Part shown: piece by piece, positions 22,511 to 27,489 of the stretch
Position numbering within the stretch: the stretch's first letter is position 1
How the letters are laid out: the number at the start of each line of letters is the position of its first letter
Source of the DNA: Roseiflexus sp.
GTDB taxonomy: Bacteria > Chloroflexota > Chloroflexia > Chloroflexales > Roseiflexaceae
Assembly: GCA_017743475.1 (NCBI GenBank)
Contig: JAGHYV010000041.1
Coordinates: forward strand, 1 to 39,503
Direction: 5' to 3'
DNA length: 39,503 nt
The notes under the pieces: generated by a model
The model's database searches: none
Told to the model about the DNA's origin: nothing
The model's input: the letters and a program-made list of their open reading frames with translations, nothing else
Made by a program: the position numbers and the translations under genes

Positions 22511-23473
22511 CTACGGTGTACTTGAAAGCACCGCTGGCACCTGGCCCGGCCTGGCTGCACCCGGTGGAATGCGGGCACCCTGATGGCACAGCCAGCACGA
22601 AGGACTCTTTCCAGCCATGATGCCATCGGCAATCCGCCCGCCTGGCGCAACATATGTTTCCTGAATATGCTTCGACATCTGGAGCATAATGATGGAATGG
22701 TTCTTCTGCTCAACCTCGTAGCTCGGGAAGTAGCGCGAATTGTGGCAGAAGGTGCATCCCTGCCCCAGACTGACGTTCATGTGATACATGGCGAACTGGT
22801 TCTGCTCTACCTCCGCGTTCGACACATCCTTCCGCCCGGTGACGACCAGACCGCCGGGGTAGTCCAGATCAAGCGGCAGGCGCCAGTCGTTCGGCAGCGT
22901 GTTCATAATCTCGATTGGATACGGCTCCAGACCCGCCGCCTTCCCGTTGTGGCAGGTTGCGCAGGTGATCTGATAGTTACCGACCGATGCTGGCAGTTTG
23001 GCAGTATAGTTCTGGTTCAGATCGGCGGACATCAGCATCATCTTGCGCGCTATCACCTTCTTTGCCGCGTTCGGATACCCCTCCTGCTGGGCGAAGTTGG
23101 CGATATTGTGGCAGTAGCTGCAATCGACCTTCAAGCCACCGGAAACATGCGCCACCATGTATGCCGAGATTTGCGCCGTCGTCATTCCTTTCAGCACCTG
23201 CACTGCCTGTGGCTGCGGATTCGCCTGAATATAGGCATTCATTGCCGCGAGCGACTCAGCCTTAATATAATCCGTGGGCTCCTGGGTGTAATTGACGTAG
23301 ATTGGGTTCTGCAACGGCGGCGCAGGCGCCGGAATGACCGTGTAGAAGATCCACCAGAAAATCACGACACTTGCCACGGCCATAACGACCGAAATGAGTC
23401 CGGCCACAATGTAGAACCTGCCGCGGACGGTATTCGTGATTTCCGGAAAGAGCGTTGGAGGCTGCTGGATCAT
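22511..23473 (-). CDS. pufC: Reaction-centre tetraheme cytochrome c subunit
   Basis: 320 aa. Donates electrons to the photo-oxidised special pair from the periplasmic side. Four CXXCH haem sites are at C118-H122, C171-H175, C240-H244 and C293-H297. Candidate axial methionines precede them in helices (for example KMMLMSADLN and IIMLQMSKHI). The N-terminus has one membrane helix (about residues 21-45, IVAGLISVVMAVASVVIFWW) without a lipobox, so it is anchored by an uncleaved span rather than by lipid. The C-terminus is proline-rich. It begins 97 bp after the pufLM stop with a strong hairpin between. Confidence 0.96.
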   Translation of the reverse strand: MIQQPPTLFPEITNTVRGRFYIVAGLISVVMAVASVVIFWWIFYTVIPAPAPPLQNPIYVNYTQEPTDYIKAESLAAMNAYIQANPQPQAVQVLKGMTTAQISAYMVAHVSGGLKVDCSYCHNIANFAQQEGYPNAAKKVIARKMMLMSADLNQNYTAKLPASVGNYQITCATCHNGKAAGLEPYPIEIMNTLPNDWRLPLDLDYPGGLVVTGRKDVSNAEVEQNQFAMYHMNVSLGQGCTFCHNSRYFPSYEVEQKNHSIIMLQMSKHIQETYVAPGGRIADGIMAGKSPSCWLCHQGARIPPGAARPGQVPAVLSSTP

Positions 23474-23570: not shown

Positions 23571-25502
23571 TTACTGGAAGATAAACTGCTGCCACCAGTA
23601 CTCAAGTGGTGGCATGGGTGCCACTATCTTGATCGACTCACCCCATGTATACCAGTCGGTTATGACCGTACCGCTCAGGAATAGACCTATCGCGCCAGTA
23701 ATTGCGGTCAACGCCGCGAACCACCATGCCCAGATGTGGATGTTGTACGAGTTGGCGTTCCAGCCCATCACCCAGCGCCAGAAGAGCTGGGCACGCTGCG
23801 TGCCGGGACCTTCCGCCATCATCTCGGTGAACTCCATCTCCGACTTCCACTTCGAGGTCGACACGATCGTCGCCCCGTGCATCGCCAGCAGCAGCGTCGA
23901 TCCCAGCAGGAAGAAGATCGAGAGCATGTGGAAGGGGTTATAGTAGAAGTTGCCCCAGTGGATGCTCACATAGTTCGTCCAGTCCAGGATCGCGCGGAAG
24001 CCGTGGCCCGGTGCGGCGTTCCAGTTGCCGAGCGCGATGGGATGGAACAGGTAAATAACGAAGTAGAGCGACAGTGCCGAAGCAAACCCCCAGGCGAGGT
24101 GCGTGCCGAGGCGCGTGGCTTTTGCGCGCGTATACAGCCGCGCCCACCAGGTCAGCACCGAGATATGCAGGAAGAACGTCGCTGCCAGCCATGCGCCACC
24201 CTTGTCCCAGGGCACATTCCAGCTCAAGCCGTACTCGGTCGGCGGGGGATAGACCGCCAGGTTCCAGAATTCACGCAGGTAAATGATCGGGTTCCATGCA
24301 ACCTGACGACCGTAGTCCACCAGGATGATGAACGCACAGGCAAAAAAGCTGATGAACGAGATAACACCCCACAGACCAACGTAGATCGGACCGACCTGAC
24401 CCTCGCCAAGCAGACGCTGCATCCAGCCAACATGCCCTGGCGGCTTGGCAATCGTGCCTTCCAGTCCGTCACGATACTCCTCGTCATGCAGATCAACCGG
24501 CTCCAGCGTCTCACGGGCGCGCCCCAGCACCAGTCCGACACCCATCAACGCCAGACCGGCAGCCAGCACTCCCTGACCGATGCCGTTCCAGATCGGCATC
24601 TTGTCCCAGAAGCCCCAGAAAGCGTTCCAGTCCTTTACGAACGTACCAGAGAGGAAGATGCACAGGTTCGAGAACAGCACCGATGCTGTGCCTGTCCAGA
24701 ACGCAACGCGGTGGATGCCGATCTCGCCGATGCTGTAGCCGAGGATATTGCGCCAGAAGACGTGGATGTTCTGGTCGGTGATATTCCGCCGCGCTTCGCT
24801 CAGCACCGCCGAACCGTGCATGTGCAGGAATAGCGTCGAGGCGAAGAGCAGGGTAATGCCGATGGCGTGGAACGGGTTATAGAAGAAGTTGTAGTACTGA
24901 TATCCAATGTTCGACACCCAGTCAAGGTGATGCGTAATGCCAAGCGGGAAGCCATGTCCCCAGGCGCCCATCGCAATCGGGCGCAAAAACTGCAGGGTAA
25001 TCCACGATGACACGACCGCGCCGAACGCAATCGGCACCTCCATGCCCATGTCCAGCTTCAGGCAGATGTCGATCTGGCGCAGCAACCAGCCCACAAAGGC
25101 AATGGTTGCCGCGATGACAGTCAGGAACCAGAAGAAGCCGGGTTTGGCAGGATCGATATTCAAACCTTGCGATACCGGCGGCGGCTCGATACGCATCGCC
25201 AGGATGTTGAACGTTCCCTCGTTGACCACGCCCTCGTACAGGTAGAACGCTACCCCAAGAATAATACCGACAATTGAGATCGCGCCAAACAGACCGACGT
25301 AGAAGCGACCGATCCAGAAGTCGAAAGGATCGACTCCAAAGAAGCGCGCCGCAAGCGTCTTACCGGGGCGCTTATAGAACTCCTCGATGATCGAGAACGG
25401 AATAACTTCTGCAGATGCTGCCTGCGAGCCTGTGGAGGAAATCGCCTCAGCGGGGAGAGTCTCTCCACTCGGCAGCGGCAGCGCGCGTGGCACAGCGGAC
25501 AT
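23571..25502 (-). CDS. pufLM: Fused photosynthetic reaction-centre subunits L and M
   Basis: 643 aa. Residues ~35-325 are L and ~355-643 are M, joined by a charged linker (about 326-360). L part: H192 in HHLDW (L-side accessory BChl ligand, L153 in Rhodobacter numbering), H212 in YNPFH (special pair, L173), H229 and H264 (iron). F207 replaces L-H168. M part: H525 in YNPFH (special pair, M202), H542 and H589 (iron). I505 replaces the accessory-BChl ligand M-H182 in the ILDWTN block, which fits a third bacteriopheophytin as in Chloroflexus-type centres. Each half has five membrane helices. Fusion is known for Roseiflexus. Hairpins flank the gene on both sides. Confidence 0.97.
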   Translation of the reverse strand: MSAVPRALPLPSGETLPAEAISSTGSQAASAEVIPFSIIEEFYKRPGKTLAARFFGVDPFDFWIGRFYVGLFGAISIVGIILGVAFYLYEGVVNEGTFNILAMRIEPPPVSQGLNIDPAKPGFFWFLTVIAATIAFVGWLLRQIDICLKLDMGMEVPIAFGAVVSSWITLQFLRPIAMGAWGHGFPLGITHHLDWVSNIGYQYYNFFYNPFHAIGITLLFASTLFLHMHGSAVLSEARRNITDQNIHVFWRNILGYSIGEIGIHRVAFWTGTASVLFSNLCIFLSGTFVKDWNAFWGFWDKMPIWNGIGQGVLAAGLALMGVGLVLGRARETLEPVDLHDEEYRDGLEGTIAKPPGHVGWMQRLLGEGQVGPIYVGLWGVISFISFFACAFIILVDYGRQVAWNPIIYLREFWNLAVYPPPTEYGLSWNVPWDKGGAWLAATFFLHISVLTWWARLYTRAKATRLGTHLAWGFASALSLYFVIYLFHPIALGNWNAAPGHGFRAILDWTNYVSIHWGNFYYNPFHMLSIFFLLGSTLLLAMHGATIVSTSKWKSEMEFTEMMAEGPGTQRAQLFWRWVMGWNANSYNIHIWAWWFAALTAITGAIGLFLSGTVITDWYTWGESIKIVAPMPPLEYWWQQFIFQ

Positions 25503-25670: not shown

Positions 25671-26000
<330 letters not shown>

Positions 26001-26128: not shown

Positions 26129-26158
26129 ATTATACTCCTGAGAAAGCCAGCGCGTCAA
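26129..26158 (-). promoter_or_regulatory. puf operon promoter
   Basis: On the minus strand TTGACG (26158-26153), 18-bp spacer and TATAAT (26134-26129). Predicted transcription start near 26122, about 140 nt before pufB. It is the only near-consensus minus-strand promoter seen in the intergenic region. Confidence 0.72.
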
Positions 26159-26180
26159 TCAAAATCCCTCACACATCTAC

Positions 26181-26213
26181 TATGCAAGGGTTATGCAGAC
26201 TGTGTGCAAAAGC
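26181..26213 (+). promoter_or_regulatory. Candidate CarH-type operator: three direct repeats, 11-bp period
   Basis: TATGCA (26181), TATGCA (26192) and TGTGCA (26203) are spaced exactly 11 bp start to start. CarH-family B12 photoreceptors are known to bind three 11-bp direct repeats with core nTnTACAn; these cores read TNTGCA, one base different. The site lies between the puf promoter and the gene for a MerR/B12-binding regulator. It is upstream of both proposed -35 boxes rather than overlapping them, so activation or an overlooked promoter must be considered. Confidence 0.62.
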
Positions 26214-26260
26214 CTGAGTTATGAATTTGCAACACTGCGTCAGAGTATGTACTACAGCGT

Positions 26261-26288
26261 TTGACAATCCCTCTGCGTATACTATAAT
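26261..26288 (+). promoter_or_regulatory. Promoter of the MerR/B12-binding regulator
   Basis: TTGACA (26261-26266), 16-bp spacer, TATAAT (26283-26288): perfect hexamers. Start expected near 26295, leaving a ~187-nt leader before ATG 26482. The 11-bp repeats end 47 bp upstream of the -35. Confidence 0.82.
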
Positions 26289-26481: not shown

Positions 26482-27489
26482 ATGTTGAAGCAGGTCCATC
26501 ACCTGCTGACGCTGTCAGACGTGCCACGCTACAATATCAAGGCAGTCGTTCAGCAGACACAGGTCAATGTTTCGACACTACGCGCATGGGAGCAACGCTA
26601 CGGCGTTCCGCGCCCGACTCGCTCTGAACACGGTCATCGGCTCTATTCGCAGCGCGATATCGAGATCATCAAGTGGCTGAAGCAGTGTACTGAGGAAGGA
26701 CTGGCGATCAGTCAGGCGGTCGCACTGTTGCGCGACATCAGCAACTCAGGTAATGCTACTCCTCATGCACTGCAATCGCAGCCGCCCCCGCCAACACTGG
26801 CAGATGCAGGATGGCCCGATCTGCGCACCCAACTGACTGAGGCGCTCCTTAGCACGAACCTGCGCCAGGCGCATTTGCTCGTCAATACTGCAGTAGCCCT
26901 CTTCCCTATCGAGACACTGGTGCTCGATCTTTTTTATCCCATGCTGGTCGATATCGGCGAGCGCTGGGCGCAGGGGGATGTGTGCGTGGCAGAGGAGCGA
27001 GTGGTGACCAACTTCGTGCGCCAGCGCCTGCTCGGGTTGTTGCAGATCCACGCGCCGTTCGCCGTCGGTCCGCGTCTGATCGCCGGATGTGCGCCGGAAG
27101 AACAGCACGAGATTGGGTTGATCATGTTCTCGCTGCTAATGGAACAGCGCGGCTGGGAACTGATCTACCTGGGGCAAACTGTGTCGGCGGAAGGACTTGA
27201 TGGCTTCCTGATGCGCCTGGCGCCGGCGCTTGTATGCATGTCGGTGTCGATGGCGGAGCATGTGCCCGGTCTGCTCGAAATTGCCCGGATTGTCGAAGGT
27301 CGCCGTCGCCATCACCTGGTGTTCGCCTACAGCGGTCAGGTGTTTGATCGCCATCCTGAGCTTCGTGGTCGCATTCCTGGCATCTTTCTTGGCAATGATT
27401 TGCGCGAAGCGGTTATTCGTGCGGATGATCTTGGTGGAGAGATCGATCCAGAACGCTGGATGCGACGGTCGAACTTCTTTCGCCACTAA
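26482..27489 (+). CDS. MerR-family regulator with cobalamin-binding domain (CarH/LitR-like)
   Basis: 335 aa. Residues ~17-85 are a MerR winged helix (YNIKAVVQQTQVNVSTLRAWEQRYGVPRPTR, GHRLYSQRDIEIIKWLK). Residues ~112-190 are the four-helix B12 cap and ~195-315 the B12 Rossmann domain. The E-x-H-x-x-G motif is present as EQHEIG, making H209 the likely lower cobalt ligand. In the cap, W162 and E172 match CarH W131 and E141, but A163 and R173 replace H132 and H142. H132 is the residue that captures cobalt after light in CarH, so the light chemistry may differ. GGAGA precedes ATG 26482. It is divergent from puf, with CarH-like repeats between. CarH numbering is from memory of the Thermus protein. 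Confidence 0.88.
   Translation: MLKQVHHLLTLSDVPRYNIKAVVQQTQVNVSTLRAWEQRYGVPRPTRSEHGHRLYSQRDIEIIKWLKQCTEEGLAISQAVALLRDISNSGNATPHALQSQPPPPTLADAGWPDLRTQLTEALLSTNLRQAHLLVNTAVALFPIETLVLDLFYPMLVDIGERWAQGDVCVAEERVVTNFVRQRLLGLLQIHAPFAVGPRLIAGCAPEEQHEIGLIMFSLLMEQRGWELIYLGQTVSAEGLDGFLMRLAPALVCMSVSMAEHVPGLLEIARIVEGRRRHHLVFAYSGQVFDRHPELRGRIPGIFLGNDLREAVIRADDLGGEIDPERWMRRSNFFRH

Follow-up and report, generated by a model that had tools for sequence, protein, structure and literature searches.

CarH, as described from Thermus thermophilus, Bacillus megaterium and the Myxococcales, joins a MerR domain to a four-helix/Rossmann cobalamin domain with an axial histidine motif, and acts on carotenoid genes through operators in which three to five 11-bp repeats stand in tandem. 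It forms an AdoCbl-dependent tetramer and lets go of DNA in the light. The published repeat reads nnnnTnnACAn, although the search in that study also allowed TnnRCR, and the known action of CarH is repression from an operator placed over the promoter (PMC9304148). The light response has a residue signature, GxxW/EH/GxxH/GxxxP (PMC11796333), in which His132 is the upper ligand for light-driven disassembly; the H132A variant of T. thermophilus CarH is largely tetrameric in the light, an earlier contrary report being cited in the same study (PMC10442372). The CarH paralogue CarA of Myxococcus xanthus is B12-independent; its targets are crt genes, and CarS relieves its action. CarA and CarH share one operator (PMC9304148). 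In purple bacteria, photosystem genes are controlled by the cobalamin-binding protein AerR/PpaA, which has no DNA-binding domain of its own and works through CrtJ/PpsR (PMC5362033). Cobalamin domains are also associated with bilin-type globin domains, to which they are fused in photocobilins, and gene pairs encoding a B12-protein and a bilin-globin have been described for BBAG-2 (PMC10151467) and the photocobilins (PMC10979010). In the literature searched we found neither a regulator nor an operator described for the reaction-centre operon in phototrophs of the Roseiflexus type, and likewise no expression data for Roseiflexus puf.

The window analysed here is a 39,503-nucleotide stretch of Roseiflexus sp. 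DNA (contig JAGHYV010000041.1, positions 1 to 39,503). Its minus strand carries pufB, pufA, a fused pufLM, pufC, bchG and bchP; divergent from puf, on the plus strand, lie a gene for a MerR/B12-binding regulator and then a 147-aa gene (Table 1). The array described below, its conservation and register, the promoter geometry, the synteny, the residue losses and the CarH core of the lineage were all established by computation, the genome scans being pattern searches.

Table 1. Coordinates of the puf/regulator intergenic region and the flanking genes in the window.
Feature	Coordinates	Strand	Remarks
pufC, reaction-centre cytochrome	22511..23473	-	
Fused pufLM reaction-centre gene	23571..25502	-	
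pufA, antenna alpha	25671..25796	-	
pufB, antenna beta	25815..25982	-	First operon gene; faces the array
puf promoter	26129..26158	-	TTGACG (26158-26153), 18-bp spacer, TATAAT (26134-26129); layout almost unchanged among relatives
Array repeat 1, CACACA	26170..26175	+	Nearest the puf promoter; TACACA in most relatives
Array repeat 2, TATGCA	26181..26186	+	
Array repeat 3, TATGCA	26192..26197	+	
Array repeat 4, TGTGCA	26203..26208	+	Core identical to canonical CarH operators of the order
Consensus promoter of the regulator gene	26261..26288	+	TTGACA, 16-bp spacer, TATAAT
puf-linked MerR/cobalamin-binding regulator, CarH-like	26482..27489	+	No equivalent of His132 or His142; EQHEIG as axial-His motif
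Conserved companion gene, 147 aa	27597..28040	+	Predicted phycobilin/photoglobin-type globin fold; invariant C27, R83-E84, W87

The original prediction placed a three-repeat CarH-type operator, with core nTnTACAn, between puf and the regulator. The hexamers TATGCA (26181), TATGCA (26192) and TGTGCA (26203) were found as described, at an exact 11-bp spacing; the strict three-repeat pattern matched once in the window, in none of 100 shuffles, and in none of 20,000 trials in which a Markov null modelled the 496-bp intergenic region. A looser form, three times TNTRCA, matched once in the 4.97-Mb genome, and its reversed control gave no match. The three repeats stand, but their number does not; a fourth in-register repeat precedes them, so that the array comprises four 11-bp repeats starting at 26170, 26181, 26192 and 26203. 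This fourth repeat reads CACACA in the window, as against TACACA in G011, G012, G013 and G005. The proposed core also had to be amended, since the published CarH repeat is nnnnTnnACAn (PMC9304148), from which TATGCA and TGTGCA deviate by an A to G change at one core position; the array repeats take the form TnnRCA in the window and the strict form TnnACA in some genera. An extra TTTGCA at 26226, listed along with the array, is altered in relatives and thus not conserved. A consensus scan also returned a terminator-like hairpin at 26166-26190 on the minus strand (10 pairs, 4 of them G-C), of which about one is expected by chance and which is probably meaningless.

Alignment among Roseiflexus genomes, which had been put forward as a check, bore out the 11-bp period, and its conservation extends well beyond the genus. 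The array is present in Roseiflexus (G009, G011, G012, G013), in G005, in the Kouleothrix-like genomes G007 and G008, in G004 and, with one repeat decayed, in genus g9; in four loci of genus g9 and G001, two of the four repeats are strict matches. When the genomes of 26 family members were scanned, 18 strict matches were obtained, and 17 of these lie upstream of pufB; the regulator adjoins puf in 17 genomes, including one of another family (G076). The region is shared with the Roseiflexus congener G009, whose regulator is 97% identical, and both register and core are retained in genera whose regulator is just 51-62% identical. G001 and G006 combine the puf array with an intact CarH paralogue only, the puf-type regulator being absent; G002 and G003 have puf-clade regulators away from puf, with no array detected upstream of them. 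No array was found at the puf promoters of the Chloroflexus-type genomes examined, though a CarH paralogue is present there, nor at those of a third phototrophic lineage (f29). A search for a wider regulon by strict cores returned the puf site alone in its own genome, where two-mismatch sites were scarce and did not clearly exceed the control.

To define the geometry of the site, the upstream regions of pufB were aligned on the -35 hexamer (21 loci, in which genomes within one genus are not independent). In 20 of the 21, from eight genera and two families, the repeat frame lies 16-17 bp from the start of the TTGACN hexamer; the spacer between -35 and -10 is 18 bp in 18 of these 20 in-frame loci and 17 bp in the remaining two. 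Ten lineage representatives gave 30 in-frame matches among 40 hexamers, against 0-2 in the neighbouring frames. In G076 the array sits one repeat further outward with the register unchanged, and G006 departs from the fixed geometry. On the upstream side, the repeat closest to the promoter stops 11 bp short of the -35 hexamer, so that the operator overlaps neither the -35 nor the -10, both of which are near consensus. Whereas the distance from the array to the puf -10 is constant at 35-36 bp, that to the start of the regulator ranges between about 230 and 1060 bp, which assigns the array to the puf promoter; a role as control site of the regulator's own promoter was rejected on this variable distance and on the lack of any register lock. 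The spacer sequences differ among genera, indicating that the register is not a matter of mere sequence inheritance. Conservation beyond Roseiflexus and the fixed distance to the puf promoter uphold the predicted CarH-family operator in this intergenic region. In G006, the most perfect array of all, with four TATGCA repeats (L088, G006:C349, 6874-6914), lies upstream of a pufBAC operon that lacks pufLM, and a recognisable promoter occurs well downstream of it.

The puf-linked regulator consists of a MerR domain followed by B12-binding_2 and B12-binding domains (Pfam, all above cut-off), and its best sequence match in the PDB is Thermus CarH, with which it shares the MerR and cobalamin domain plan; its score of 142.9 bits is below the 400-bit cut-off of the NCBIfam CarH equivalog. 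The segment that reads DNA, LRxWExRYGxPxPxRxxxGHRLYS, is shared by the regulator and CarH. In a tree of 41 sequences, the puf-linked clade was separated from the intact CarH paralogues with support of 99/97, the Thermus sequence forming a long branch and G076 being loosely placed. The axial histidine (His177, E/DxHxxG) and Trp131 are kept in all 22 puf-clade orthologues, and His132 (alanine in the window) and the proline of GxxxP in none. In the adenosyl pocket, Glu141 is kept along with Trp131; His142 is replaced by arginine in Roseiflexus, and the EH pair is kept in some other genera. Roseiflexus regulators also lack the glycine of GxxH, to which we gave little weight because it varies in the intact paralogues as well. 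Taken at the level of residues, the regulator appears to be a light-blind CarH paralogue that still keeps the histidine ligand of cobalamin. Light control by this protein in the manner of CarH, as had been suggested, is made unlikely by the loss of His132 from 22/22 orthologues and, in Roseiflexus, of His142, the GxxH glycine and the GxxxP proline. The fold of the cobalamin domain is closest to that of a photocobilin (8j2w, Z 22.6), and it also matches CarH (Z 21) and the AerR-type 7te2 (Z 19.4); the regulator thus shares this fold with AerR, but unlike AerR it has MerR and B12 domains in one protein.

The window genome also encodes an intact CarH-like paralogue (G000:C72:22633-23520; L002, L095) with TGTGCA-N5-TTGACA-N5-TGTGCG over its own promoter, which is the textbook CarH arrangement. 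Repeats of the type TGTGCA-N5-TTGAC[AG]-N5-TGTGC[AG] lie over the gene's own -35 in 15 of 18 intact CarH genes, and one further gene (L024, G014) carries an array that keeps the register and ends in TTGACA; TGTGCA is therefore a CarH-family core in this order, independently of puf. The intact paralogues all keep Trp131, His132, Glu141-His142, His177 and the GxxxP proline, and in G009 and G006 the gene is followed by that for phytoene synthase. The puf array differs from these and other CarH operators in lying upstream of the -35, on the opposite strand relative to its target, and the target here is the reaction-centre operon.

We consider it reasonably probable that the array is a four-repeat CarH-family operator of the puf promoter, bound by a light-blind MerR/B12 regulator that contacts RNA polymerase. 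That the binding protein is the puf-linked regulator, as well as its oligomer state, its ligand and the direction of control, is what we infer from these features. The regulator would bind the array as an oligomer whose DNA-binding domains each occupy one 11-bp turn, all on one face, and would in this position touch RNA polymerase at TTGACN-N18-TATAAT; the antenna/reaction-centre operon would then respond to cobalamin status and/or to a signal from the globin-fold partner. Contact with the polymerase is favoured because the operator ends just upstream of the -35 at a near-fixed distance, and since its position and spacing fit such contact, activation is our first choice; we lean towards it and rank it above repression. 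G001 and G006 with their lone intact paralogue, the puf-clade regulators of G002 and G003 away from puf, the deviating geometry of G006 and the loci of genus g9 and G001 with two strict repeats count against this reading. Together these data suggest that the puf promoter is under a previously undescribed B12 or partner-protein control.

Repression by the same regulator is the less probable direction, though it deserves serious consideration: an oligomer at about -48 to -90 would block the contacts of the RNA polymerase alpha subunit and be relieved by a change in cobalamin, redox state or partner. The puf -35 and -10 are near consensus and perhaps need no activator, and known CarH proteins repress, from operators over the promoter, so that activation would be new (PMC9304148); however, the array overlaps neither hexamer, and its spacing, fixed to 1 bp across genera, is tighter than steric blocking demands. 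It is also conceivable, if rather unlikely, that the intact light-sensing paralogue (G000:C72) is the main binder and places puf under ordinary AdoCbl/light control, with the local regulator competing. This paralogue has Trp131, His132, Glu141-His142, His177 and the GxxxP proline, and an identical TGTGCA core at its own operator, but the Chloroflexus-type genomes examined possess the paralogue without an array upstream of pufB, and the synteny of regulator and puf in 17 genomes favours the local gene. G001 and G006, with an array and only the intact paralogue, suggest that intact CarH may use the puf array too; by analogy with CarA and CarH, which share one operator in Myxococcus (PMC9304148), competition of the two proteins for the array is a real possibility.

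The remaining readings set the CarH family aside. OmpR/PhoB-family activators, which combine a receiver with a winged helix, use tandem 11-bp repeats placed immediately upstream of the -35. The period and position of the array suit this class, and two genomes possess the array but lack the puf-linked regulator; we nevertheless regard a response regulator of this family, perhaps an unlinked one, as improbable, because the same core and period are borne by the intact CarH genes' own promoters and the conserved neighbour of puf is a MerR/B12 gene. That the repeats are meaningless, arising by chance or by simple inheritance of intergenic DNA, draws on the region being mostly alignable within Roseiflexus, and is very improbable given that register and core persist at 51-62% regulator identity with differing spacer DNA and are absent from shuffles. 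The analysis supplies an exact, testable promoter site together with its likely protein, arranged differently from CarH control as it is known; should this hold, purple-bacterial AerR would be joined by a second, mechanistically separate example of photosystem genes governed by a cobalamin protein.

The companion gene is conserved alongside the regulator in 18 genomes, the window included, and its product has no Pfam match. Roseiflexus genomes hold three copies, the other two of the window genome lying at G000:C82:2772-3185 and G000:C32:2970-3383; distant single copies occur in Chloroflexaceae, adjoining stand-alone B12-binding proteins in G027 and G030. The predicted model (pLDDT 83, pTM 0.81) matched smURFP (Z 15.9), allophycocyanins and the bilin domain of a photocobilin (Z 13.2), Z values that helical folds inflate, and the best Foldseek E was only 3.5e-3. 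A sequence-profile search against the PDB gave no match, so the fold assignment rests on the predicted model, and a bilin-type globin fold is suggestive only. In place of the Cys-x-Arg/Gln-Asp chromophore motif of photocobilins and photoglobins, the companion has x-x-R-E, with R83-E84 invariant and the cysteine absent, and no haem oxygenase (PF01126) was found in Roseiflexus or most of the family; both disfavour bilin binding. As in photocobilins and photoglobin/BBAG-2 globins, a cobalamin domain is here associated with a candidate bilin-type globin, but the two are encoded by separate genes and the B12 partner bears a MerR domain. A split photocobilin, in which a cobalamin protein that binds DNA, together with a tetrapyrrole-binding globin as a second protein, would activate the reaction-centre operon from a dedicated operator via RNA polymerase, is a speculative and rather doubtful extension of this likeness; if it were true, photosystem synthesis would be coupled to non-green light, or else to cobalamin or to intermediates of the bacteriochlorophyll pathway.

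Further 11-bp arrays were encountered in relatives. In G017, a second array in the opposite orientation lies about 258 bp upstream of pufB, beyond the conserved one (L080/L049), and a TATGCA three-repeat array is conserved away from puf in one Chloroflexaceae genus (L105, L118, L119; G039-G041). Four-repeat CarH-type arrays containing TTGACA occur upstream of open frames in several genera (L176, L178, L180, L157); by their sequences these frames may form one MFS-type transporter family, a possible further target of CarH.
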